Assembly (NCBI RefSeq): GCF_000220565.1
Contig: NZ_AFPM01000159.1
Location: 1-64,000 of the forward strand
Length of the DNA: 64,000 nt
Origin: Oceanicola sp. S124
GTDB taxonomy: Bacteria > Pseudomonadota > Alphaproteobacteria > Rhodobacterales > Rhodobacteraceae
Direction: 5' to 3'
A model generated the notes under the pieces. The model saw only the letters and a list, made by a program, of their open reading frames with translations. It had not been told where the DNA came from and did not search any database. The position numbers were made by a program, and so were the translations under genes. Of the stretch, positions 7,099 to 41,114 are shown piece by piece (positions within the stretch are counted from its first letter, which is position 1; each line of letters opens with the position of its first letter).

Positions 7099-7931
7099 TT
7101 GCGGCCTCCGATGCGAAGCATGCGATCAAGGATGATGGCGACAACGACGATGACGAAGCCGCTTTCGAAGCCCAGCGAGGTGTTGACCTGGTTCAGCGCC
7201 CGCACCACCGGCACGCCAAGACCGTCCGCACCGACCAGCGCAGCGACGACGACCATGGACAGCGACAGCATGATGGTCTGGTTCAGGCCGGCCATGATCT
7301 GCGGCAGGGCATAGGGCAGCTCGACCTTGGTCAGGGTCTGCCACTTGGTGCCACCGAAGGCCTGGCTGGCTTCCAGCAGCGGCTTCGGCGTCGAGGAGAC
7401 CCCGAGGTAGGTCAGCCGGATCGGCGCCGGCACGACGAAGATCACCGTGGCGATCAGGCCCGGCACCATGCCGATGCCGAAGAAGACGATGGCCGGGATC
7501 AGGTAGACGAAGGTCGGCAGGGTCTGCATCAGGTCCAGCACGGGTTGCAGGAAGGCATAGACCCCCGGCCGATGCGCGGCCCAGATGCCTATCGGCACCC
7601 CGATGGCCATGCAGACGATACAGGAAGAGATGACCAGCGTCAGGCTTTCGGTGGTCTCTTCCCAGTAGTCCTGGTTGAGGATGAAGAGAAAGCCGAGCGC
7701 CACGAAGAGGCAGGTCTTCCAGCTGCGTTGCAGCACCCAGGTCAGCAGGACGAAGGCGGCGATGACCACCAGCTCGGGCGGTTCCTGAAGCAACCAGAGA
7801 AGCCCGTCGATCAGGTTCTCGGCGCCATTGGCGAGAACATCGACGACGCCCTCGAAATTGTCCCTCAGCCAGTCGAAGAAATCACTGGCCCAGTCCCCTA
7901 CGGGGATCTTGTTGTCTGTCAGCCACTCCAA
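7095..7931 (-). CDS. choW: Choline ABC transporter permease
   Basis: Inner-membrane permease of the ProW/ChoW family, 278 aa. Hydrophobic helices begin near residue 55 (LVVIAAFVLLTWVL) and continue to the C-terminus; the permease ATPase-contact loop is visible as LLEASQAFGGTKWQTLTKVELPYALPQIMAG. The N-terminal 45 residues are soluble. The start is a TTG at 7931, supported by GGAGG 7-8 bases upstream; no ATG fits better. It lies between choX and choV, separated from choX by 75 bp that carry a strong hairpin, so it is probably made at a lower level than ChoX. Confidence 0.9.
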   Translation of the reverse strand: MEWLTDNKIPVGDWASDFFDWLRDNFEGVVDVLANGAENLIDGLLWLLQEPPELVVIAAFVLLTWVLQRSWKTCLFVALGFLFILNQDYWEETTESLTLVISSCIVCMAIGVPIGIWAAHRPGVYAFLQPVLDLMQTLPTFVYLIPAIVFFGIGMVPGLIATVIFVVPAPIRLTYLGVSSTPKPLLEASQAFGGTKWQTLTKVELPYALPQIMAGLNQTIMLSLSMVVVAALVGADGLGVPVVRALNQVNTSLGFESGFVIVVVAIILDRMLRIGGRK

Positions 7932-17951: not shown

Positions 17952-18150
17952 CGGCGGGAGTATTTTCAGCCTGGTGATGCGGCGGGATGCTGCCCGGAAA
18001 GCCCCCCTGCTTGCCCAGTGCGAGCGTGCCACGCCCTTCACGGAGAACGAGGCCGCCTCGAAGTGCGCTTCAAGCATCATCACCAGGCCGCAAGTACTCC
18101 GGGGGTGAATTGCGCCCGCGAGGGCTCAGGAGGCGGCAGAGCCCCCTCCC
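17952..18150. repeat. Inverted pair of the GAGTATTTTCAGCCTGGTG repeat
   Basis: A plus-strand copy (17952-17980, GGGAGTATTTTCAGCCTGGT then GATG) faces a minus-strand copy (18074-18110, whose complement reads CACCCCCGGAGTACTTGCGG then CCTGGTGATG). The right copy is followed by GGCGGCAGAGCCCCCTCCC, the GGGGGCTCTGCC module that accompanies this element elsewhere in the window. About 95 bp of non-coding sequence lies between them. Confidence 0.8.
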
Positions 18151-29535: not shown

Positions 29536-30261
29536 TCAGACCACGCCGCCGTCGACGACGATCACCTGCCCGGTCAGCATCCGCGCCGCCTCCGAGCTGA
29601 GCCAGAGCGCGCAATCGGCGATATCGGCGGGGCGGATCATGTCCTTCAGGCACTGGATCTCATGGGTCTGGGCGACCCAGTCGGGGGCCATGCCCGCCTC
29701 GACCCGTTCGGTCATCACCCGGCCCGGAGCGATGGCATTGGCGCGGATGCCGCGCGCGCCGAGGTCGCGGGCCAGCCCCTTGGTCATGCCAATGATCCCT
29801 GCCTTGGCGGTGTGATAGGCGGTCAGGTTGGGTGCCAGCTTCATCCAGGCGGTCGAGGACAGGCTGACCACCGCGCCGCCCCCCGCCCCGGCCATCGAGG
29901 GCGCCACCAGCCCCGCCAGCATCACCGCATGATCGAGGTTCAGCGCCATCATCTGCCGCCAGACCTCGGGCGTCAGATCGTCAAAGGGAATGCGGCGGTC
30001 GACACCGGCATTGTTGACCAGCGCGCGCACCGGGCCATGGGCTGCCACGGCGCCTTCGATCAGGGCCGGCAGGCGGTCCAGCTCGGTCAGGTCGATGCGA
30101 TGATTGTCGATCCCCTCGCCCCCCGGCGCCGCATCGCGGTCCAGCCCGGTGACGATGGCGCCCTGCGCCGCGAAGGCCCGCGCGGTGGCAAGGCCGATGC
30201 CCGCCGCCGCGCCGGTGACGACCACGTGGCGACCGCGGAACTCGGGGTAGGTCGGGCTCAT
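29536..30261 (-). CDS. SDR-family sugar dehydrogenase (probable aldose 1-dehydrogenase)
   Basis: NAD(P)-dependent SDR of 241 aa. Motifs are TGAAAGIGLATARAF, NNAGVDRRIPF, catalytic Ser in SLSSTAWM, YHTAK (YxxxK) and the C-terminal DGGVV ending common in sugar SDRs. Its ATG overlaps the stop of the lactonase-fusion gene by 4 bp and it is last in the eight-gene sugar operon. With a lactonase, a sugar-acid dehydratase, DgoK and DgoA nearby, it most likely oxidises D-galactose or L-arabinose at C1 to the lactone. A gluconate 5-dehydrogenase-like or fucose dehydrogenase role cannot be excluded. Confidence 0.85.
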   Translation of the reverse strand: MSPTYPEFRGRHVVVTGAAAGIGLATARAFAAQGAIVTGLDRDAAPGGEGIDNHRIDLTELDRLPALIEGAVAAHGPVRALVNNAGVDRRIPFDDLTPEVWRQMMALNLDHAVMLAGLVAPSMAGAGGGAVVSLSSTAWMKLAPNLTAYHTAKAGIIGMTKGLARDLGARGIRANAIAPGRVMTERVEAGMAPDWVAQTHEIQCLKDMIRPADIADCALWLSSEAARMLTGQVIVVDGGVV

Positions 30262-31937
30262 AGCGCCACCTCGGTGGTGGGCTGGCCGGGCACCTCCATG
30301 TCGATGGCGAAGATGCCGCCCGACAGCGGCGCCTCTTCCAGCACCGCCGCAGGCAGGCGGATCGAGGCGGTGGTGATATAGAGCGTCTTCAGATCCGGCC
30401 CGCCGAAGCAGCAGGAGGTCGGACGCGGCACCGGCATGTCGATCTCGCGCAGCAGGGTGCCGTCGGGGCGGTAGCCCGCCACCCGCCAGCCGTCCCAGAG
30501 GGCGATCCAGACCGTGCCCTCGGCATCGACGGTCATGCCGTCGGGCTTGCCGTCCTTCGGGTCGAACTGCAGGAACACCCGCCGGTTGCTGATCTTGCCC
30601 GCCTCGATGTCGAAGTCATAGGCAAAGACCGTGCCCAGGCCCGAGTCGTTGAAATAGAAGGTCTTGTCGTCGGCGCTCCAGCCGAGGCCGTTCGAGACCT
30701 GGAACCCGCCATCCACGGCCCGCGCCGCGCCGAGGGTGTCGAAACAGTAGAGCGATCCCGAGGGCATCGAGGCATCAAGGCTCATGCTGCCCGCCCAGAT
30801 CCGGCCCCGCCGGTCGGTCTTGGCATCGTTGAAGCGGTTCGACGGCAGATGCGCCTCGGGGTCGTAGACCGGCGAGAGGCGGCCCGTTTCCGGGTCCAGC
30901 AGCTCGATCCCGTTCTGGGTAACGGCCAGCAGCGAGCCGTCCGTCGCGGGCAGCACCCCCGAGACCAGGCGGCTGGCCGGGCGCATGATGTCGCCCCCCT
31001 GCCCCTGCGCCGGGTCATAGCGGTGCGTTGCGGGGGCCGCGATGTCGACCCAGAGCAGGCGGTCGTGGCGGGCGTCCCAGACCGGGCCCTCGCCGACGAT
31101 GGCGCCGGCGGGCAGGACGCATTCCAGCGCCTCCTCGATGTGGCTGTTGCGGCGGGGGTTGGGAGAGATGCTCACGCTGGCGGTTCCGATATTGCCCATG
31201 ACGCGGCGGGCGGCCTCCATGAGGTCGCGTCCGACGATATGGCGCTGTTCGTGGCTGAGGGCGCTTTCATGGGCGGTCAGCGCGATGGCGCCCCGCCCCA
31301 TGCCCGGCGGCCCGTGGACCTCGACCGAGATCACGATCAGCCCGGGGATCGAACGGCTTTCGGCAATCGAATAGCCCCGGGCCCGGCTGATGGCGATCTC
31401 GGACAGGATGCGATGCTGTTCCTCGGCGTCGTAGCGGGTCAGCAGGCCCTGCATCTCGTGCGGGGGCATGGCGGCCATGATCGCCCGGCCAGAGCTGCTG
31501 TCGGGCATCGGCAGCGTGCGCCCGACCTCGATGCTGACCGCCAGCGGGTTCGAGGGGCGGCGCACATCGACATAGATGATCTGCTGCCCCTCCATCACCG
31601 TCAGCGAAACGGTCTGGTTGAGCTGCGCCGCCAGCCGCGTCAGCTCATGCTCGGCGGCCGAGCGCAGGTCGAAACTGGAGAGCGAGCTGCGCCCCAGTTC
31701 GATCATCCGGTTGCCCAGCGAATAGGCCTTGGCGCGGGTGTCATGCTTGACGTAGCCGAATTCGACCAGCGCCCCCAGCAGGCGATAGAGCGTCGCCTTG
31801 GGCAGCTTGGTGCGCTCCAGCAGGAAGCCCGAGCCGACGGGCTCGCCCGCCTCGGCGATCAGCTCGACCAGCTGGATGCCCTTCACCAGGGTCCCGGCGC
31901 CGGGGTAACGCTTTGCGATATTGTCAAAATCCGGCAA
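30258..31937 (-). CDS. IclR-family regulator fused to SMP-30/gluconolactonase domain
   Basis: One continuous 559-aa frame joins a regulator to an enzyme. Residues about 14-75 are an IclR winged helix-turn-helix (LVKGIQLVELIAEAGEPVGS, TLYRLLGALVEFGYV) and about 85-250 the IclR effector domain (SRSIPGLIVISVEVHGPPG). After a 15-20-residue linker, residues about 275-559 form a full SMP-30 six-bladed lactonase with intact metal ligands Glu283 (GEGPVWD), Asn416 (SNGLGW) and Asp466 (PDGMTVD). The lactonase would hydrolyse the aldonolactone made by the SDR. The DNA-binding half probably controls this operon and the divergent dgo genes. It lies 12 bp after the ATPase gene. That the enzyme half senses or modulates regulation is inference. 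Confidence 0.93.
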   Translation of the reverse strand: MPDFDNIAKRYPGAGTLVKGIQLVELIAEAGEPVGSGFLLERTKLPKATLYRLLGALVEFGYVKHDTRAKAYSLGNRMIELGRSSLSSFDLRSAAEHELTRLAAQLNQTVSLTVMEGQQIIYVDVRRPSNPLAVSIEVGRTLPMPDSSSGRAIMAAMPPHEMQGLLTRYDAEEQHRILSEIAISRARGYSIAESRSIPGLIVISVEVHGPPGMGRGAIALTAHESALSHEQRHIVGRDLMEAARRVMGNIGTASVSISPNPRRNSHIEEALECVLPAGAIVGEGPVWDARHDRLLWVDIAAPATHRYDPAQGQGGDIMRPASRLVSGVLPATDGSLLAVTQNGIELLDPETGRLSPVYDPEAHLPSNRFNDAKTDRRGRIWAGSMSLDASMPSGSLYCFDTLGAARAVDGGFQVSNGLGWSADDKTFYFNDSGLGTVFAYDFDIEAGKISNRRVFLQFDPKDGKPDGMTVDAEGTVWIALWDGWRVAGYRPDGTLLREIDMPVPRPTSCCFGGPDLKTLYITTASIRLPAAVLEEAPLSGGIFAIDMEVPGQPTTEVAL

Positions 31938-31949
31938 GACCGCCCCCGT

Positions 31950-33080
<1,131 letters not shown>

Positions 33081-33093
33081 GTTGAAGGCCCTT

Positions 33094-33927
33094 CTATTTC
33101 TCGGCGCCGGCCGAGAGGCCGCCCACGAGATAGCGTTCAAGGAAGAGATAGACCCCGATGATCGGGAGCGCGGCCATCAGCGAGGCCGCCATGATGGTGT
33201 TCCAGTCGGTGACGAATTCGCCCTTCAGCGTGGCGATGCCGACGTTCAGCGTCCACTTGCTTTCCGAGGTCGTCAGGAAGGTGCGGGCATAGAGGAAATC
33301 CGACCAGCTGATGACAAAGGCGTAGAGCGAGGTCGCTGCCAGCCCCGGTGCCGCCACCGGCAGCACCACCCGCACCAGCGCCGCCAGCGGCGAGCAGCCG
33401 TCGACCAGGGCGGCCTGCTCCAGCTCGGCGGGGATGGTGTCGAAATAGCCTTTCAGCATCCAGGTGGCGAAGGGCACGATCAGCGTAGACTGGGCGATGA
33501 CCACCGACCACAGCGAGCCGACCAGCCCCAGCGACTTGAAGATGGCAAAGAGCGGGATCACCAGCAGGGTCGCGGGCAGCATCTTGGAGGTCAGGATGAA
33601 CAGCCCCAGCCCCTGCCCGCCGCGCAGCCGGTGGCGCGACAGGGCGTAGGCGGCCAGCACGCCGATGGTCAGCGACAGGATCATCGTCGCCACCGCGATC
33701 AGCACGGTGTTCCACATCCACAGCCCGAAGGGCTGCGCCGCCAGCAGGTCGGAAAAGACGTTCCACTGCGGATCCTCGGGCCAGAACTTGGGCGGGTAGC
33801 TGCGCAGCTGCGTGCGCGGCGACAGCGCCGTCAGCACCATCCAGTAGATCGGGAACAGCAGCAGCCCGCAGACCACGATGACCGTGCCGTAAAGGCCGAA
33901 GCTTCCCAGGAATGAGCGTTTCTGCAT
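33094..33927 (-). CDS. Sugar ABC transporter permease (MalG-like)
   Basis: 277-aa inner-membrane permease with an opening helix GTVIVVCGLLLFPIYWMVLTALSP and the EAA loop LEQAALVDGCSPLAALVRVVLPVAAPG. The long loop after helix 1 (RTQLRSYPPKFWPEDPQWNVFSDLL) is typical of MalG-type sugar permeases. It lies between the MalF-like partner (9-bp gap) and the ATPase (13-bp gap) in the operon running from 38.2 to 29.5 kb. Confidence 0.92.
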   Translation of the reverse strand: MQKRSFLGSFGLYGTVIVVCGLLLFPIYWMVLTALSPRTQLRSYPPKFWPEDPQWNVFSDLLAAQPFGLWMWNTVLIAVATMILSLTIGVLAAYALSRHRLRGGQGLGLFILTSKMLPATLLVIPLFAIFKSLGLVGSLWSVVIAQSTLIVPFATWMLKGYFDTIPAELEQAALVDGCSPLAALVRVVLPVAAPGLAATSLYAFVISWSDFLYARTFLTTSESKWTLNVGIATLKGEFVTDWNTIMAASLMAALPIIGVYLFLERYLVGGLSAGAEK

Positions 33928-33936
33928 CGGGGTCTC

Positions 33937-34830
33937 CTAGTGTGCCGAGCTGGCGAAACGGCCGACCAGCGCGCGGCTGATCACGGCACAGATGATCATG
34001 GTGACGACACCGACCGCAGCCCCCTGCCCCATCTTGAAGAACGAGAAGCTCTGCTCGAAGGTCAGGATCGACAGGGTAGTGGTGCCCCCGATGGGCCCGC
34101 CCTGGGTCAGCACGTAGATGATGGCGAAGTCGCGGAAGACCCAGAGGGTCGTCATCACGGCGGTGACGCCGATCACGGGTGCCAGGTTCGGCAGGGTGAC
34201 GTAGATGAAGCGTTTCCAGACATTGGCACCGTCGACGCGGGCGGCCTGGTACTGCTCTTCCGGGATGGATTGCAGCCCGGCCAGCAGCATGATCGACATC
34301 AGCGGATAGCCCTTCCAGATCATCACCAGGCAGACGGCGAAGAAGGCGGCGGTGGCGTTGGAGGCGAACTGGATCGGCTCGGAGATCAGGTGCGCGCGCA
34401 GCAGCAGCCAGTTGATCACCCCGAAGGAGCTGTCCAGCATCCAGGCCCAGATCACCGTGGCCACGACCTCGGGCACGGCCCAGGGCAGCGCCACGAACAG
34501 CCGCGCCAGGCTGCGGCCGCGAAAGCGCTGGTTGACCAGCAGCGCCGTGGCCAGCCCGATGACCAGGGAGATGCCGCCGACGGTCAGCACCATCTTCGCC
34601 GTCACCCAGACCGCGTTCCAGAACTCGCCCGAGTTGAACAGCCAGTCGTAGTTCTTGAGGGTCCAGGCCTCGCGGTCCGCGCCGACGCGGGCAATGCGCA
34701 CGTCCTGCAGCGAGATATCGACCGAAAGCAGGATCGGGTAGATGATGATGAGCGCCATGAGAAGCACGGCCGGGGCCAGCAGCAGGTAGCCGAATTTCGA
34801 CCTGTGCCGTGGCGACGAGAAATCAATCAC
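33937..34830 (-). CDS. Sugar ABC transporter permease (MalF-like)
   Basis: 297-aa permease, partner of the MalG-like protein. It begins with helix FGYLLLAPAVLLMALIIIYPILLSVDISL and carries the EAA loop YQAARVDGANVWKRFIYVTLPNLAP. The GGPIGGTTTLSILTFEQSF segment near the C-terminus is common to CUT1 MalF-like permeases. A good GGGAGGACCACAG sequence precedes the ATG. The substrate is presumably a galactose- or arabinose-containing sugar, judged from the operon's catabolic genes. Confidence 0.92.
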   Translation of the reverse strand: MIDFSSPRHRSKFGYLLLAPAVLLMALIIIYPILLSVDISLQDVRIARVGADREAWTLKNYDWLFNSGEFWNAVWVTAKMVLTVGGISLVIGLATALLVNQRFRGRSLARLFVALPWAVPEVVATVIWAWMLDSSFGVINWLLLRAHLISEPIQFASNATAAFFAVCLVMIWKGYPLMSIMLLAGLQSIPEEQYQAARVDGANVWKRFIYVTLPNLAPVIGVTAVMTTLWVFRDFAIIYVLTQGGPIGGTTTLSILTFEQSFSFFKMGQGAAVGVVTMIICAVISRALVGRFASSAH

Positions 34831-34890
34831 TGTGGTCCTCCCGTTGATCGGCGGCCGGGGGCAAGGCCCGGCCGCCGGAGTCCTTCAGGC

Positions 34891-36156
34891 TCAGTCCGCG
34901 ATACGCTCGACGGCGGCCTGCATGTTGGCCGCAGCCTCTTCCGGGCTGAGGTCGTTGATCAGCATCCGCTGGGTTTCGCGGAAGACAAGCTTCGTGACTT
35001 CGTTGAACTCAAGCTCCAGCCCCTTGGGCAGGCGGTCGACACCCGCAGCGGCGGCTGCGTCATTGGCCTTTGCGAAGAGCTCGAAGTAGGGATCCGCCGC
35101 GATCTCGGCCGAGTAGTCGAGGCCGGGCATCGGCGCCGGGGACGAGCCGAGCGTGGCGAAGCGCTGCTGCATTTCCTGCGAGGCGGCGGTCTTGATGAAG
35201 TCCCAGACCAGCTCTTTCTTCTCGTCCGAGATGTCCGAGGGCATACCGATCACGTTCGAGGTGCCGCCGACCGGCGGATCGAAGGGGCTTTCGGACAGCT
35301 TCAGGTTCTCGCGGATCCCCTCTTCGGCGCCCTTCATCACGTTGTAGATCCAGGGACCATCCAGACGCATGGCGATGCGGCCCTCGACCAGCAGCTGACG
35401 CATGTCGCCAGCCTCGGCATCCTTGGGGGTCAGGCCCTCGGTATAGAGCTGCTTGAAGCGGCGCAGGCCCTCGATCACGCCGGGGCTGTCGAAGGCCGGC
35501 TTGCCGTCCTCGGTCCAGTTGCCGCCCGCGTCGAGGACGAAGTGCAGCATGTCGTGCATCATGTTCGAGCCGCCGGTGCTGGCCACGCCGACGCCGTACT
35601 GGTCGGTCTGACCGTCCCCGTCGGTGTCCTTGGTGGCCGCACGCGCAGCCGCAAGGAAGCTGTCCCAGTCGGTCGGCACCGCGTCGATCCCGGCATCGGC
35701 CAGCAGCTTCTCGTTATAGGCTAGGATATAGGCCGTGTAGAGCAGCATGATGCAGTTGGTATTGCCATTCCATTCGCAGGTGCCCTGCCCGGCCCAGCCG
35801 TCGAGGTTCAGCCCGTCACGCTCGATCCAGGGGTCGAGGTTTTCCATCCAGCCTTCCTGGGCGAAGCTCTGGTATTCGAAGGCGGCGAGGTGGACGATAT
35901 CCGGCGGGGTGCCCCCGGCGAACATGGTGAACATCGTGTCGGCATACTCCCCGCGCGAGACCTTGGTCATCTCGATCTCGGTGCCGGGGTGCTCTTCCTC
36001 GAACTTGGCGATGACTTCGTTCCACCAGTCGCCGTAACCCGGCTCCCCCTTCATCCAGCTGACGAAGGTCAGGGTCTCGGCCGAGGCCGGCAGCGCGGTA
36101 AGGGCGGTGGTCAGGGCCAGCGCCGCAGCGGTGGCCGTCTTCTTCAGATGTTTCAT
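34891..36156 (-). CDS. Sugar ABC transporter substrate-binding protein (family 1)
   Basis: Periplasmic receptor of the second importer, 421 aa. The ATG at 36156 follows AGGAGGAGGACCT and gives the signal peptide MKHLKKTATAAALALTTALT followed by ALPASA; an earlier in-frame ATG (36174) lacks this support. The mature part begins ETLTFVSWMKGEPGYGDWWN, with MFAGGTPPDIVHLAAFEYQSFAQEGWMENL as the family 1 signature. Two cysteines (TCEWNGNTNC) may form a small disulfide loop. The protein is clearly different from the binding protein at 26.4 kb, so the two importers probably take different sugars. It lies 28 bp after the dehydratase gene. Confidence 0.92.
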   Translation of the reverse strand: MKHLKKTATAAALALTTALTALPASAETLTFVSWMKGEPGYGDWWNEVIAKFEEEHPGTEIEMTKVSRGEYADTMFTMFAGGTPPDIVHLAAFEYQSFAQEGWMENLDPWIERDGLNLDGWAGQGTCEWNGNTNCIMLLYTAYILAYNEKLLADAGIDAVPTDWDSFLAAARAATKDTDGDGQTDQYGVGVASTGGSNMMHDMLHFVLDAGGNWTEDGKPAFDSPGVIEGLRRFKQLYTEGLTPKDAEAGDMRQLLVEGRIAMRLDGPWIYNVMKGAEEGIRENLKLSESPFDPPVGGTSNVIGMPSDISDEKKELVWDFIKTAASQEMQQRFATLGSSPAPMPGLDYSAEIAADPYFELFAKANDAAAAAGVDRLPKGLELEFNEVTKLVFRETQRMLINDLSPEEAAANMQAAVERIAD

Positions 36157-36184
36157 AGGTCCTCCTCCTAACATCCTTGGTCAA

Positions 36185-37354
36185 TCAAAGCGGGGTCAAG
36201 TGATCGAAGGCCGCCCGGTTGGGCCGCACACCGATCCCCGGCGTGTCGTCGATATGGAAATGGCCGTCCTTGCAGGGGGCGGCCCCGTCCAGCAGCTCGG
36301 CATTGCGGGTGTAGATCGAATGCTGGAACTCGTGGCACCCGGCGCCCATGGCGAGGGCGGCGCGCAGGCTGGCGCTGGCGAAGATGCCGAGGCCGATGGT
36401 AGCATGGGGGATGATCTGGGCCCCCGCGCCCTGCGCCATGCGGGCAATGCGGGTGAACTGGGTGATCCCGGTGTGCCCCATCTCGGGCTGGACGATGGAA
36501 CAGGCGCGGGCCTCGAGGCGGGGCCGGTAATCCCAGTCGGTGCGCCACTCCTCGCCAAGGGCCAGCGGCATGGAAATGCCCGCCGCCACCCGCGCCTGTG
36601 TCGCCACGTCCTCTGGCGCCACGGGGGCTTCGAGGAACCAGGGCGCATCGGCTTCCAGCGCGGCGCCGAGGGCCACGGCTTCGTCGGCGGTATAGGCCCA
36701 GTGCATGTCCACGGCGATGCGGTGATCGGCCCCGAGCGCGGCGCGCAGGGCGGCAACCTCACCCGGGACATCCCCGGCCTCGGTGTGGCTGATCGGGATC
36801 TTCACCGCATCGAAACCACGCGCCTTCCAGGCCTCGGCCATCTCGATCCGGCCCCTGCGGTCCGGCGCCGGCAGGCCCGAGACATAGCCCGCAAGCTGCC
36901 CCGCCCCGGCACGGCCAAGCGCGCCCTGCAGGCTCTGTCCGCCCGCCTGGGCAAAGAGATCCCACAGCGCGATATCCAGCGCCGCAAGGGCGTCGGCCAG
37001 GTAGCCGCCCCAGTAGCCGCGATTGCGTTGCAGCGCATAGAGCGCGTCCCAGGCCTGATCCGGGCGCATCGGCGCCAGCTGCATCAGGTAAGGCGCGAAC
37101 AGGTCATGGATCAGCGCCGCCACGGCGCCCGGCGCGATCAGCCCGTAGGTTTCGCCCCAGCCCTCGCGGCCCGAGGCATCGCGCAGCCGCACCACCAGCG
37201 AACGGTCGATCAGCGGATAGACTGTGCCGTTGAAGCCGCGCACGATGTAGCGGTCGCCGATCATCACCTCTCCGGTGCCCGGCGCGCCGAGATAGGCGGT
37301 GTCGCGGGGCCGTTCGAAGAGAAAGACCTCGACGGAGGTGATCTTCTCATGCAT
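36185..37354 (-). CDS. Enolase-superfamily sugar-acid dehydratase
   Basis: Mandelate racemase/muconate lactonising enzyme-type protein, 389 aa, predicted to dehydrate an aldonic acid to a 2-keto-3-deoxy acid. Visible catalytic set: Lys185 (DAVKIPIS), Mg ligands Asp216 (VDMHW), Glu242 (FLEAP) and Glu268 (LGEEW), and general base/acid His317 (IIPHATIG). The DxH at 216-218 resembles sugar-acid dehydratases of the GalD/D-tartrate dehydratase type. The gene overlaps the upstream lyase gene by 8 bp. With DgoK and DgoA divergent, D-galactonate is the most likely substrate, but L-arabinonate or a related acid is possible. Confidence 0.88.
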   Translation of the reverse strand: MHEKITSVEVFLFERPRDTAYLGAPGTGEVMIGDRYIVRGFNGTVYPLIDRSLVVRLRDASGREGWGETYGLIAPGAVAALIHDLFAPYLMQLAPMRPDQAWDALYALQRNRGYWGGYLADALAALDIALWDLFAQAGGQSLQGALGRAGAGQLAGYVSGLPAPDRRGRIEMAEAWKARGFDAVKIPISHTEAGDVPGEVAALRAALGADHRIAVDMHWAYTADEAVALGAALEADAPWFLEAPVAPEDVATQARVAAGISMPLALGEEWRTDWDYRPRLEARACSIVQPEMGHTGITQFTRIARMAQGAGAQIIPHATIGLGIFASASLRAALAMGAGCHEFQHSIYTRNAELLDGAAPCKDGHFHIDDTPGIGVRPNRAAFDHLTPL

Positions 37355-38249
37355 CTGCCATCTCCAGGTTGGCCATCGCGACGCGGTAGTAGTCGAGCAC
37401 CAGCGCCTTCAGCGGGGCATCCATCTCGGGCAGGGTCTCGCGCACGATGTCGGTGGCGACAAGGCCGCGGCTCTGCAGGATCAGCTTGGTCAGCCGCATC
37501 CGGTAGGGGGCCTGCACCAGCAGCAGCGGCAGCGTATCGCGGTAGAGCCGCAGCGCGCGGTCGCGGTCTCCGGCCTTGTAGGCCGCCATCAGCGCCACGT
37601 GAAGTTCAAGCAGCTCGATGGCCGGCATGGTGGCGATGGCGCCGCGCTCAAGCTCCTCGAAGAGGTAGCGCGCCCCGCCGCCGCCGATCACGCCATCCAG
37701 ATGCGCCGAGCCGCCCGCGACCAGCTCGCTGACCTTGGGGCCCGAGGGCACGCCCTCTTCCTTGACGTAGCGGATCGCCGGCACGGCCTCGGCCAGTTCC
37801 AGCATCTGCGCCGCCGAAAGGTCGGCGCCGCGCGGGGCAAAGAGGTTCTGCAGCACGATGAAACCGCCGTCCAGTGCCTCGGCGATTCGGGTGAACCAGG
37901 CGATGTGATCCTGGCCCATGGCCGGGATCGCCATGGCCATGGCACCGTCGACGCCCAGCCCGGCAACGGTGCGGGCGATCTCCACCATCTCGGCGGGATC
38001 GGCAGCATTGACACCGGCCAGCACCGGCAGGCGCTTCGCCGCCACCTCGACCACCCGGGTCAGGGCCGCCGCGCGCTCTTCTTGGCTGAGATGCACGTCC
38101 TCGGAGGCGACGCCGGGATAGACCAGCGCGGCCGCACCCGCATCCACCGCGAAATCGACCAGAGCGGCCAGCGCCTGCATGTCCACGGACCCGTCCGCCG
38201 CATAGGGGGTGGGGATGATCGGCAGGACGCCTTCCAGACTGCTTTTCAT
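37347..38249 (-). CDS. DHDPS/NAL-family lyase (sugar-acid aldolase or dehydratase)
   Basis: 300-aa (beta/alpha)8-barrel protein of the dihydrodipicolinate synthase superfamily. The Schiff-base Lys163 is in IRYVKEEGVPSG and the pyruvate-binding start reads GVLPIIPTPYAADGSVD. The conserved catalytic Tyr position (normally YNVP) here reads VLQNLFAPRG, so true lysine-pathway DHDPS activity is unlikely. Members near sugar-acid genes act on 2-keto-3-deoxy acids, for example L-2-keto-3-deoxyarabonate dehydratases or KDG aldolases. It is the first gene of the eight-gene operon. It probably serves a pentose (arabinose) branch parallel to DgoK/DgoA; this is inferred. Confidence 0.87.
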   Translation of the reverse strand: MKSSLEGVLPIIPTPYAADGSVDMQALAALVDFAVDAGAAALVYPGVASEDVHLSQEERAAALTRVVEVAAKRLPVLAGVNAADPAEMVEIARTVAGLGVDGAMAMAIPAMGQDHIAWFTRIAEALDGGFIVLQNLFAPRGADLSAAQMLELAEAVPAIRYVKEEGVPSGPKVSELVAGGSAHLDGVIGGGGARYLFEELERGAIATMPAIELLELHVALMAAYKAGDRDRALRLYRDTLPLLLVQAPYRMRLTKLILQSRGLVATDIVRETLPEMDAPLKALVLDYYRVAMANLEMADA

Positions 38250-38260
38250 CTAATTCCCTT

Positions 38261-38290
38261 TATTTGAGACTGTCTTTTCATATTTGAAAC
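38261..38290. promoter_or_regulatory. Candidate operator between the two sugar operons
   Basis: In the 107-bp divergent gap, TATTTGAGAC (38261-38270) and TATTTGAAAC (38281-38290) are direct repeats exactly 20 bp apart, two helical turns. The second overlaps a perfect palindrome TTTCATATTTGAAA (38276-38289). The region is strongly A/T-rich for this genome. It is well placed to control both operons, and the IclR/SMP-30 fusion protein is the obvious candidate ligand; IclR-family proteins bind such TGAAA/TTTCA-type sites. Confidence 0.5.
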
Positions 38291-38356
38291 CATCACATTC
38301 AGCGCCTATGCTGTCAACGAATTTCGGAAAACCCTTCGAAGGATGGAGAAAAACCT

Positions 38357-39265
38357 ATGCAATTCATTGCCGTAGACTGGGGCAGCAGCCGCTTCCGCGC
38401 CTGGCGAATCGAGGCGGACGGGCAAATCAGAGACACGCGAGAAAGCGCTCAGGGTCTCAAATCCGTGACCGACGGGGGGTTCGAAGCCGTGCTGACGGGG
38501 GCCTGCGGCAGTTGGCTGGAAGACAGCCCCGAGAGCCCGGTGCTGATGTCGGGCATGATCGGCGCCCGTGGCGGCTGGATCGAGGCCCCCTATTGCCCCT
38601 GCCCCGCCGACATGCAGGCCGTCGGCGCGGCGGCGGTGAAGTTGACCGTCGCCGGTCGTCCCGCCGCGATCCTGCCCGGGGCCACCTGCACCGACACCCT
38701 TGGCCATGCGGATGTGATGCGCGGGGAAGAGGTGCAGATCTTCGGCGCCGCCGCGACCCTCGGCCTCCGCGATGCGGTGATCTGCATTCCCGGCACACAT
38801 GCCAAGTGGGCCGCGCTTGAGGGCGGACGGCTGACCGGCTTCCAGACCCATGTCACCGGAGAGCTCTTCGCCCTGCTGCGCGGCCAGAGCCTTGTCGGCG
38901 CCCTGGCCGAGGGCGATGCGGAGGATCCGCAGGCCTTCCTGGCGGGCGTCGATCACGGCCGCGCCACCCCGGCGGCCCATGCGGTCTTCGCCGCCCGCGC
39001 CGACACGCTGAACGGACGACTGGCGCCGACCTCGGCCTCGGCCTTCCTGTCGGGCGTGCTGATCGGCAACGAGTTGGCGGCGCGGCCGCAGACCGGCGGC
39101 GAGGTGCTGCTGCTGGCCACAGGCATCCTGGCAGAGCGCTACGGGCTGGCGCTGGATCACCTCGGCGTCGCCACCCGGCTGGTCGAGGCCAAGGCCGCCA
39201 CCCGCGCCGGTCAGATCATGGCCGCCCGCAGCCTCTGGCCCGAACGGCTGCCCGCGCGACCATGA
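38357..39265 (+). CDS. dgoK: 2-dehydro-3-deoxygalactonokinase
   Basis: Phosphorylates 2-keto-3-deoxygalactonate at O6 in the De Ley-Doudoroff galactose pathway. The 302-aa product has the ASKHA-type start QFIAVDWGSSRFRAW, the family-specific MRGEEVQIFGA and CIPGTHAKWA, and SASAFLSGVLIGNEL near the C-terminus. AAGGATGGAGAAA precedes the ATG. It leads a four-gene operon divergent from the dehydratase/transporter operon; its stop overlaps the next start by 4 bp. Confidence 0.94.
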   Translation: MQFIAVDWGSSRFRAWRIEADGQIRDTRESAQGLKSVTDGGFEAVLTGACGSWLEDSPESPVLMSGMIGARGGWIEAPYCPCPADMQAVGAAAVKLTVAGRPAAILPGATCTDTLGHADVMRGEEVQIFGAAATLGLRDAVICIPGTHAKWAALEGGRLTGFQTHVTGELFALLRGQSLVGALAEGDAEDPQAFLAGVDHGRATPAAHAVFAARADTLNGRLAPTSASAFLSGVLIGNELAARPQTGGEVLLLATGILAERYGLALDHLGVATRLVEAKAATRAGQIMAARSLWPERLPARP

Positions 39266-39618
39266 GCCTGCTTCCGGACGCTGCGCTGGACCACGTCGCC
39301 CAGCCCTGCCCCGACCTCGCGGCGGGGCGGGCCTTCTACGCGCGGCTCGGCTTCACGCCGGGCTTCGCCAAGCCGGGCCTGCATCAGATGGAGCTGGGCG
39401 CCTGCAAGATCGAGCTGATCGAAGGCGCGGTCCCGCCGCAAGCTGCGCCGGTGCCCGCCCATGTCGCCCTGCGGGTGCCCGATGCGCAGGCGGCCTATGC
39501 CAGGCTTGAGACTGCGGGCCTGCGGCCAGACGCCCCGCCCCGGCGCGGCGCCTCGGGCGTGCTGTTCTTCTTCCTGCGCGATCCCGCAGGCAACTGGATC
39601 GAGATCGTCTCGCCATGA
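39262..39618 (+). CDS. VOC (glyoxalase/bleomycin-resistance) fold protein
   Basis: Small 118-aa protein with the paired beta-alpha-beta-beta-beta VOC fold: ALDHVAQPCPDLAAGRAFYARLGF at the start and FLRDPAGNWIEIVSP at the end, containing the usual metal-ligand Glu. Its function is unknown. It is inserted between dgoK and a DMT transporter with ATGA overlaps on both sides, so it is tightly coupled to galactonate metabolism and might act on a sugar-acid or aldehyde by-product. No ligand is evident from the sequence. Confidence 0.85.
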   Translation: MSLLPDAALDHVAQPCPDLAAGRAFYARLGFTPGFAKPGLHQMELGACKIELIEGAVPPQAAPVPAHVALRVPDAQAAYARLETAGLRPDAPPRRGASGVLFFFLRDPAGNWIEIVSP

Positions 39619-40475
39619 CCTTCCGCAGTTCCGCCACCGGCGACATCGGCCCGGCTCTGCTGGCGCTGTTCTGCGGCGTCGCCTCCAGCGCCTGCCTCAA
39701 GGGAATGAGCCTGCCTGCCGGGCCCGCGATCACCCTAAGGGCGCTGATCGCGCTGACGCTGCTCTCGACCCTGGTCGTCTGGCGCTGGCGGCGTGGTGCG
39801 GGTGGTCCCCTCTCGCCCTCGGGCGCGCTGCGGGCCGGGCTGGACGGGCTGGCGGGGCTGACTTTCGCCCTGGCGGTCTTCGAACTGCCCCTCGGCCTGC
39901 TGGCGGCGATCCATGCCACGGTGCCGCTGGTCAGCGTGGCCCTGGCAGCGCTGATCCTGCGAGAACCGCTCGGCCCCCGGGTGCTGGTCGCCCTCGGGCT
40001 GGGGTTGGTCGGTATCCTGATCATCTCGGCCCCGGGGCTGGAGGCCTCGCCACGCGGGCTGGTGCTGGCCCTGGTCTCGGTCTTTGCCTATGCGGCGCGG
40101 GACCTCGTGACCCGGCGCCTGCGCCCCGGCACCGACATGGTGAAATCCGTCACCCTCTCGACCCTGCTGATCCTGCTGGGTGCGCTTCTGACGGCAAGCG
40201 GCGGGCTGATGCGCCCCTCGCCCCCCGACCTTGGCCTGCTGTTGCTGGCGGTGGCGGGGTTCCTCGGGGCCAACACCCTGATCATCACCGCCTTCCGCCG
40301 CGCCCCCGTCGCCCGCATCGCGCCGCTGCGCTATTCCAGCATCCTGTGGTCGCTGCTCTTCGACGCGCTGCTCTGGGCGCATGTCCCCGACCGCGCCACC
40401 TGGGCCGGCATCGCCCTGGTGGTCGGCGCCGGCGCAGTGCTGCTGGCCCCCCTTCCCCGCAAAAGGACCCCCTGA
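39615..40475 (+). CDS. EamA/DMT-family transporter
   Basis: Ten-helix drug/metabolite transporter, 286 aa, with two EamA halves (about residues 10-140 and 150-280). Typical segments are ALFCGVASSACLKGMSLPAG, HATVPLVSVALAALILREPLGPRVLVALGLGLVGILI and ILWSLLFDALLWAHVPDRATWAGIALVVGAGAVLL. It overlaps the VOC gene by 4 bp and is followed at once by dgoA. It may move a sugar acid or related metabolite, but EamA proteins are too varied to predict the substrate. Confidence 0.88.
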   Translation: MTFRSSATGDIGPALLALFCGVASSACLKGMSLPAGPAITLRALIALTLLSTLVVWRWRRGAGGPLSPSGALRAGLDGLAGLTFALAVFELPLGLLAAIHATVPLVSVALAALILREPLGPRVLVALGLGLVGILIISAPGLEASPRGLVLALVSVFAYAARDLVTRRLRPGTDMVKSVTLSTLLILLGALLTASGGLMRPSPPDLGLLLLAVAGFLGANTLIITAFRRAPVARIAPLRYSSILWSLLFDALLWAHVPDRATWAGIALVVGAGAVLLAPLPRKRTP

Positions 40476-41114
40476 ATGACCCTTTCCGACTGGTTGTCCC
40501 GCAATCCCCTGATCGCCATCCTGCGCGGCCTCACCCCCGACGAGGCCCTGCCCGTCGCCGAGGTGCTCGCCGAGACGGGCTTTCGCTGCCTGGAGGTGCC
40601 GCTGAACTCGCCCCGCGCGCTGGAGAGCATCACCCGGATCGCCCGCGAATGGGGCGACGGGATGCTGATCGGCGCGGGCACCGTGCTGCGCCCGGAAGAG
40701 GCGCGGGCCTGCGTCGCGGCGGGCGGGCGGATCGTCGTTTCGCCCAACACCGACGCTTCGGTGATCGCGGCGGGCGTGGCGGCGGGGGCCATCTGCCTGC
40801 CCGGCGCGGCCACCCCGACCGAAGCCTTCGCGGCCCTCGCCGCAGGTGCCCACGGCCTGAAGCTGTTCCCGGCCGAGGCCGCCTCTCCGGCCGTGCTGAA
40901 GGCCTGGCGGGCGGTGCTGCCGGCCGGCACCCCGGTGATCCCGGTCGGCGGGATCGATGCAGAGACCATGCCCCCCTGGCGCGCCGCCGGGGCAGCCGGC
41001 TTCGGCATCGGCGGATCGCTCTACGCGCCCGGCCGGGGGCTGGACGAGGTGCGCCGGCGCGCCGAGGCCCTGCAGGCGGGGCTGGCACTGACCTCGGGAA
41101 GCGGATCGGCCTGA
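40476..41114 (+). CDS. dgoA: 2-dehydro-3-deoxy-6-phosphogalactonate aldolase
   Basis: Cleaves KDPGal to pyruvate and glyceraldehyde-3-phosphate, the last step of the De Ley-Doudoroff pathway. The 212-aa product has the KDPG/KDPGal aldolase pattern: PLIAILRGLTPDEA (Arg17), catalytic Glu40 in CLEVPLNSP, and Schiff-base Lys129 in HGLKLFPAEA. The VPLNSP and FPAEAASP motifs favour DgoA over the KDPG aldolase Eda. It begins immediately after the transporter stop and ends the operon; a large hairpin follows at 41195. Confidence 0.93.
   Translation: MTLSDWLSRNPLIAILRGLTPDEALPVAEVLAETGFRCLEVPLNSPRALESITRIAREWGDGMLIGAGTVLRPEEARACVAAGGRIVVSPNTDASVIAAGVAAGAICLPGAATPTEAFAALAAGAHGLKLFPAEAASPAVLKAWRAVLPAGTPVIPVGGIDAETMPPWRAAGAAGFGIGGSLYAPGRGLDEVRRRAEALQAGLALTSGSGSA

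Follow-up and report, generated by a model that had tools for sequence, protein, structure and literature searches.

A putative three-box IclR-type operator between divergent sugar operons, one of which encodes an IclR/SMP-30 fusion regulator, in Oceanicola sp. S124

Operators composed of several boxes are well described for regulators of the IclR family. In the main text of their survey, Suvorova and Gelfand, 2021 (PMC8222616) assign three-box sites to 32 IclR orthologous groups, citing PcaU, PobR and HmgR for operators of this kind, and report tandem sites 18-22 nt apart for 94 orthologous groups. On the side of the pathway, three Rhodobacteraceae genome bins have been described as containing DeLey-Doudoroff loci for galactose, equipped with a CUT1 transporter and a regulator of the IclR family (PMC5507952). 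The locus analyzed here lies in a 64,000-nucleotide stretch of Oceanicola sp. S124 (contig NZ_AFPM01000159.1), referred to below as the window. Its putative operator has three boxes of alternating direction, like those described for PcaU, PobR and HmgR, with one pair for each published arrangement, whereas its box letters differ from those of PcaU and its regulator carries a lactonase. With the DeLey-Doudoroff loci, to which we liken it by description, it shares the pathway type, the transporter type, an IclR regulator and the host family, whereas the description of those loci, as far as it extends, mentions no SMP-30 fusion.

An earlier note on this DNA had placed an eight-gene operon and a dgoK operon on the two sides of a short intergenic gap, with the IclR/SMP-30 fusion as the only regulator among their genes, and both statements hold, the dgoK operon having four genes (Table 1). 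The two permeases and the ATPase of the larger operon were named from open frames and homology, and dgoA scores above its curated cut-off. Together, dgoK, dgoA, the MR-family enzyme, the SDR and the lactonase fit an oxidative route of the galactose/galactonate type. The sugar that enters this route is less sure, because the best, though distant, solved relatives of the DHDPS-family enzyme by sequence are L-2-keto-3-deoxyarabonate dehydratases.

The fusion belongs to the IclR family by its matches to PF09339 (40.5 bits, cut-off 22) and PF01614 (72.3 bits, cut-off 24); a narrower assignment to the PcaR/PcaU/PobR subfamily (TIGR02431) was rejected, the score of 98.4 bits being under the curated cut-off of 284.75. 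Its solved relatives by sequence are 3mq0, the repressor of the blcABC operon, for the IclR half and 7plb, a Smp-30/Cgr1 family protein, for the lactonase half; these represent the same domain families as separate proteins, whereas the fusion joins them in a single chain. Fusion residues E283, N370, N416 and D466 align with regucalcin residues that we take to be active-site positions. Because they are kept in 35, 35, 34 and 33 of 35 fusions, respectively, the lactonase half is probably active. Fusions of this family turned up on chromosomes as well as on large plasmids, in Rhodobacterales, Hyphomicrobiales and other groups; most come from Alphaproteobacteria, and one, on a plasmid, comes from Variovorax. 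A literature search that ran mostly without subscription journals, and is weak evidence of absence, returned no paper with both IclR and SMP-30, and neither 'SMP' nor 'fusion' occurs in the main text of PMC8222616. The fused regulator seems little studied.

The gap between the DHDPS-family gene and dgoK (38250-38356, 107 bases) has a G+C content of 39%, while the 100-base windows around it mostly range between 58 and 80%, in agreement with the A/T-rich island that the earlier note had described between the two operons. The two direct repeats 20 bp apart, TATTTGAGAC and TATTTGAAAC, are present exactly as it had given them; the inverted repeat that it had called perfect, TTTCATATTTGAAA, is imperfect, one of its 7 pairs being a mismatch. 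The repeats and the palindrome resolve into three six-base half-sites, TGAGAC (38265), TTTTCA (38275, inverted) and TGAAAC (38285), which alternate in direction in steps of 10 bp, leaving one helical turn between neighbors. We thus found TGRAAC-type boxes with alternating direction and helical spacing inside a predicted promoter region, as operators of this class have them. Searches for other elements gave no Rfam family at its gathering score at 38100-38500 and no terminator-like site at 38150-38460.

Table 1. Coordinates of the operons, the fusion gene, the putative operator and the predicted promoter elements in the window
Feature	Coordinates	Strand	Remarks
Eight-gene operon	29536..38249	-	dapA-like, MR/MLE-family enzyme, ABC binding protein, two permeases, ATPase, fusion, SDR
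IclR/SMP-30 fusion	30258..31937	-	IclR HTH 16-66, IclR effector 85-246, SMP-30 lactonase 281-524; PF09339, PF01614, PF08450
DHDPS/DapA-family enzyme, first gene of eight-gene operon	37347..38249	-	PF00701
Probable ribosome-binding site of dapA-like gene, AGGGAA on minus strand	38254..38259	-	by eye; CCC largely conserved
Direct repeat 1, TATTTGAGAC	38261..38270	+	holds box 1 TGAGAC 38265-38270; kept in clade I
Box 2, inverted half-site	38275..38280	-	TTTTCA on plus strand; some relatives GTTTCA or TTTCCA
Imperfect palindrome, TTTCATATTTGAAA	38276..38289	.	made by boxes 2 and 3; 6/7 pairs
Direct repeat 2, TATTTGAAAC	38281..38290	+	holds box 3 TGAAAC 38285-38290; box kept
Predicted dgoK promoter, -35 TTGAAA	38284..38289	+	inside box 3
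Tentative dapA-operon promoter, -10 GATGGT on minus strand	38289..38294	-	weak, 3/6; 17 bp from TTGACA
Predicted dgoK promoter, -10 TATGCT	38307..38312	+	spacer 17
Predicted dapA-operon promoter, -35 TTGACA on minus strand	38312..38317	-	in 9/9 clade I regions
dgoK, 2-keto-3-deoxy-galactonokinase	38357..39265	+	PF05035
Four-gene operon	38357..41114	+	dgoK, glyoxalase-like, EamA transporter, dgoA aldolase

We compared these features with dinucleotide shuffles of the gap (n = 2000). A 10-mer repeated with at most one mismatch arose in 181 shuffles at distances of 11-60 bp and in 19 at 19-22 bp, while a repeat at 19-21 bp joined to a palindrome arose in 2. Since a 6-of-7 palindrome was generated in 320 of the 2000 shuffles, the palindrome alone has little meaning as a sign of an operator, and it is conservation that decides.

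Loci with relatives of the fusion were gathered from contigs of 84,980 species, yielding 21 loci, of which 10 contain full-length fusions; the other 11 match the lactonase half only or less and were dropped. Further fusion loci came from overlapping draws of 198, 385, 394 and 390 genomes and from plasmids, where 121 records match most of the fusion and 10 of these were taken. One locus nearly identical to the window (L031) was excluded from the conservation counts, L052 duplicates L033, and L057 (genome G094, 27% identity) was left out. Ten loci including the window, with 58-99% identity to the window's fusion, make up what we call clade I. In nine of them dapA is divergent to dgoK, across a gap of about 101-110 bases where both starts are visible, and the tenth (L034, Chelativorans) has no dgoK match in its 21.6-kb locus.

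For nine non-redundant clade I regions upstream of dapA we made a gap-free alignment with box 1 as the reference, placing the anchors by eye. The footprinting of orthologous gaps that the earlier note had proposed shows that the repeats have not been lost: the three boxes are recognizable in all nine regions, with varying letters (box 1 is TGCAA in L053 and L085, box 2 is TTTCCA in three regions, and box 3 of L034 is displaced by one base). Over the nine regions, mean information per column is 1.57 bits in box 1, 1.69 in box 2 and 1.46 in box 3. The stretch that separates boxes 1 and 2 has 0.55 bits and the one that separates boxes 2 and 3 has 1.28; the right-hand spacers have 0.49 and 0.50, and the surroundings of TGTCAA 1.40. 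Among offsets of 11-40 bp the top mean repeat score falls at 20 bp, a score reached in 0 of 1000 mononucleotide shuffles; L053, taken singly, has a better score at an offset of 33 bp. In L034 a long inverted repeat upstream of dapA, CCCAATATATGA ... TCATATATTGGG (L034:3414-3447), overlaps the operator boxes.

The putative operator overlaps the predicted dgoK promoter and the conserved TTGACA region of dapA, and is thus positioned at the promoters, as predicted, of the regulator's own and the neighboring operon. The sigma-70-like promoter TTGAAA-17-TATGCT (38284-38312) points to dgoK, with 0.2 such matches expected in the scanned stretch. Its -35 place is occupied by TTGAAA, TTGATA or TTGAAG in all eight non-redundant gaps with divergent dgoK, and TANNNT stands 17 bp on in the same eight, most of the -10s in relatives agreeing only at TA and T. 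On the opposite strand, the dapA operon would start near 38282, within the operator, and the two predicted promoters, if both are right, overlap nearly completely. L034 offers a natural control, having the fusion and no dgoK nearby. TTGGGA and GCGCGA stand where its dgoK promoter would be expected, and TTGACA, box 1 and box 2 are retained; in this single case, as far as its sequence can tell, the dgoK promoter is decayed where a nearby dgoK is missing, and boxes 1 and 2 are kept.

Measured against the published motifs (main text of PMC8222616), the site is a known kind of operator, of the IclR type, by its sequence. The pair formed by boxes 2 and 3 is 16 bases long (GTT-10-AAC), whereas group 1 pairs have 11 or 12 inner bases, and the group 1 motif GKTYCRYW3-4RYGRAMC of 17-18 bases does not fit this length. 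Because the pair is one base short of group 1, we file the site under IclR-type operators at large. The group 1 box letters themselves recur with 0-2 mismatches in eight of the nine clade I regions and with 4 mismatches at length 16 in L034. The box 1-box 2 pair, also 16 bases long, falls within the 15-16 bases of the group 2 motif TGRAACAN1-2TGTTYCA but has 2 mismatches in 12 box bases and, compared by eye, different letters at the inner A and T.

More distant fusions provided a wider comparison. Clade II comprises eight loci at about 44% identity (Microvirga, Chelatococcus, two Agrobacterium, two Sinorhizobium, G694 and G967), in which dapA adjoins the MR gene and, in the six loci of named genera, dgoK is divergent. 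Over these eight upstream regions the top mean repeat score at offsets of 11-40 bp falls at 21 bp, which again 0 of 1000 mononucleotide shuffles reach. A direct repeat of 20-21 bp spacing, like the 20-bp one on which the earlier note had built its proposal, stands out in these distant relatives as a group, individual cases being weak (the peak is at 19 in L078 and at 34 in L094). These spacings of about two helical turns, 20 bp here and mostly 21 bp in clade II, are like those of the tandem IclR sites in PMC8222616; in contrast to the tandem sites described there, the first palindrome of clade I has a left half-site that is eroded in most cases, leaving three clear boxes.

The remaining 17 loci form clade III, and in 14 of them the recognized operon genes all lie downstream of the fusion. 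Counted over all 17 loci, an exact TGRAACN3GTTYCA stands upstream of the fusion in 10. The exact match fails in seven, of which L079 and L080 have 2 mismatches, and L035, L038, L056, L083 and L095 show nothing convincing upstream. The promoter, published-motif and palindrome tests covered 12 of the 17 loci, without L035, L037, L038, L056 and L083. In six of these 12 regions (L096, L080, L090, L054, L055 and L082) the box pair begins right where a TTGACN hexamer ends, and the -10s that come next have 3-4 of 6 matches at best. Counts that contain L036/L037, L088/L092 or L093/L094 are not independent, because these are close pairs.

In light of these comparisons we regard the site as a conserved docking site for an IclR-type protein, very probably the fusion. 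The earlier note had proposed the gap as a shared operator for the fusion, a proposal that gains support, at the level of sequence, from the conservation of the boxes, their co-occurrence with the fusion, the operators upstream of distant fusions and a recognition-helix residue that changes with the clade. Rhizobium sp. SSA_523 and Roseibium suaedae have both the operon and the boxes, and their fusions fall inside the group formed by the fusions of the window's family; an operon that brings its own switch along would be expected to keep operator and fusion together in this way. Of 198 family genomes, 6 contain an MR relative (E 1e-80 or better), and five of these, the window's own included, contain a full-length fusion (the sixth is G014); fusion-less control operons sought in these 198 genomes were not obtained. 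Helix residue 51 of the fusion, which we matched by eye to specificity position 32/35 of the published survey (PMC8222616), is Y in all 10 clade I fusions, A or V in all eight of clade II and H in 16 of 17 in clade III. The third box base is A in 21, G in 4 and C in 2 of the 27 clade I boxes, and G in 15 and A in 5 of the 20 clade III boxes, a covariation that is confounded by descent, with three clades and two changes. In the published motif, His at the specificity position weakly prefers C at motif position 10 (PMC8222616), which would correspond to the third box base here.

When seven relatives were used to build a matrix, with the window left out, the site at 38261 scored 46.4 bits, and the known site ranks first in each of the nine clade I loci. 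The earlier note had suggested looking for the motif upstream of the arabinofuranosidase operon; the search found no second copy there or elsewhere in the 64-kb window, where the next best matrix match has only 12.9 bits (at 18067), and that target is not supported. The 30-bp three-box pattern, allowed up to 3 mismatches, matched once in the genome (339 contigs, about 92% complete). Because no second copy was found in window or genome, we do not predict the arabinofuranosidase operon as a target. Two partial matches were observed. GATTTGAGAC, one mismatch from the repeat, lies on the minus strand inside dgoK (38454-38463) and may be a coding chance or an auxiliary site. The 14-mer TTTCATATTTGAAA recurs on the minus strand of another contig of the same genome (L073:4834-4847, contig C294), about 2.3 kb from a separate IclR gene at 7134-7883, and is possibly that gene's own operator.

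The reading that we hold to be likely is a compact two-way control region, in which the fusion represses both operons and its own gene from the three-box operator and is released by a compound of the pathway. Two sigma-70-type promoters would be nearly superposed, TTGAAA-17-TATGCT leading to dgoK and TTGACA on the opposite strand leading to the dapA operon, and the operator (38261-38290) would cover the dgoK -35 together with the likely -10/start region of dapA. The fusion, made from the dapA operon, would bind there with its DNA-binding heads one helical turn apart and, as we argue from the position of the operator, would shut off both operons and its own gene. The IclR effector domain suggests that the fusion would let go when a pathway compound binds this domain, the likely signal being a sugar acid or a lactone from a pathway of the galactonate type, a signal that the fused lactonase may remove or produce. 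The sequence itself shows the boxes, their conservation, their co-occurrence with the fusion and the conservation of promoter elements; we infer the binding, its stoichiometry, the repression, the inducer and the role of the lactonase.

We considered three other explanations. The conserved letters might represent promoter and ribosome-binding elements in an A/T-rich gap and no operator, given that box 3 holds the dgoK -35, TGTCAA is the dapA -35 and the CCC on the left side of box 1 probably marks a ribosome-binding site. Boxes 1 and 2, however, lie outside the assigned promoter and ribosome-binding elements and are conserved at least as well as box 3, and both are kept in L034, where the dgoK promoter is lost; we find this explanation very hard to credit. 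If the operator is real, its main binder might still be another IclR-family protein whose gene lies elsewhere in the genome. The genome has 33 matches to the IclR-type HTH, 16 of them at E 1.1e-7 or better with the fusion included, and a separate IclR gene has an identical TTTCATATTTGAAA core at a distance of about 2.3 kb (C294:4834-4847), so that the site could also be bound by a second IclR protein. Yet no place outside the gap, C294 included, matches the 30-bp three-box pattern within 3 mismatches, operator and fusion co-occur across genera and orders, and operators of the same class lie upstream of distant fusions (10 of 17), all of which makes a different main binder improbable in our judgment.

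A further possibility is that the fusion binds as proposed but activates, or both represses and activates, like PcaU. IclR proteins such as PcaU can also activate, and the three-box plan is described for PcaU, PobR and HmgR (main text of PMC8222616); the poor dapA -10 also resembles those of activated promoters. Against this, the site covers the dgoK -35 and the likely -10/start region of dapA instead of lying upstream of the two, and in six of the 12 clade III regions the TTGACN hexamer is followed at once by the boxes. We consider activation rather unlikely. Under the favored reading of repression by the fusion, the site would provide a concrete DNA target for the IclR/SMP-30 fusion regulator family, and a small construct would allow a test of how the pathway is sensed by a regulator that contains a lactonase of its own.

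The three clades also invite a more speculative reading, toward which we are doubtful: the operator may have moved between the two-box group 2 form of clade III and the tandem group 1 palindromes of clade II, both arrangements being seen at once in the three boxes of clade I, and the family would form a natural series for two dimerization modes in a regulator that carries an enzyme acting on its own signal and limits its own induction. If true, alternative dimerization of IclR proteins on different box arrangements would become testable. The palindrome counts weigh against this shift. In clade II the arrangement GTTTCA-N5-TGAAAC, with at least 5 of 6 pairs, occurs in 4 of 8 regions and the other arrangement in 0 of 8; in clade I the two arrangements occur in only 5 of 9 regions (one of them, L034, by a different pair) and 3 of 9 regions, respectively; and group 1-type palindromes with at least 5 of 6 pairs occur in 4 of 12 clade III regions, off the box pair, with 1.1 expected from shuffling. 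Apart from the matches upstream of the fusion, clade III loci contain 8 other exact TGRAACN3GTTYCA matches in the remaining 331,048 bases, and these form four pairs about 55 bp apart (L055:17416-17486, L082:4710-4779, L090:15987-16055 and L096:14588-14658). The pair in L096 sits between the SDR and ABC binding-protein genes, and such paired sites look like a second regulated promoter.
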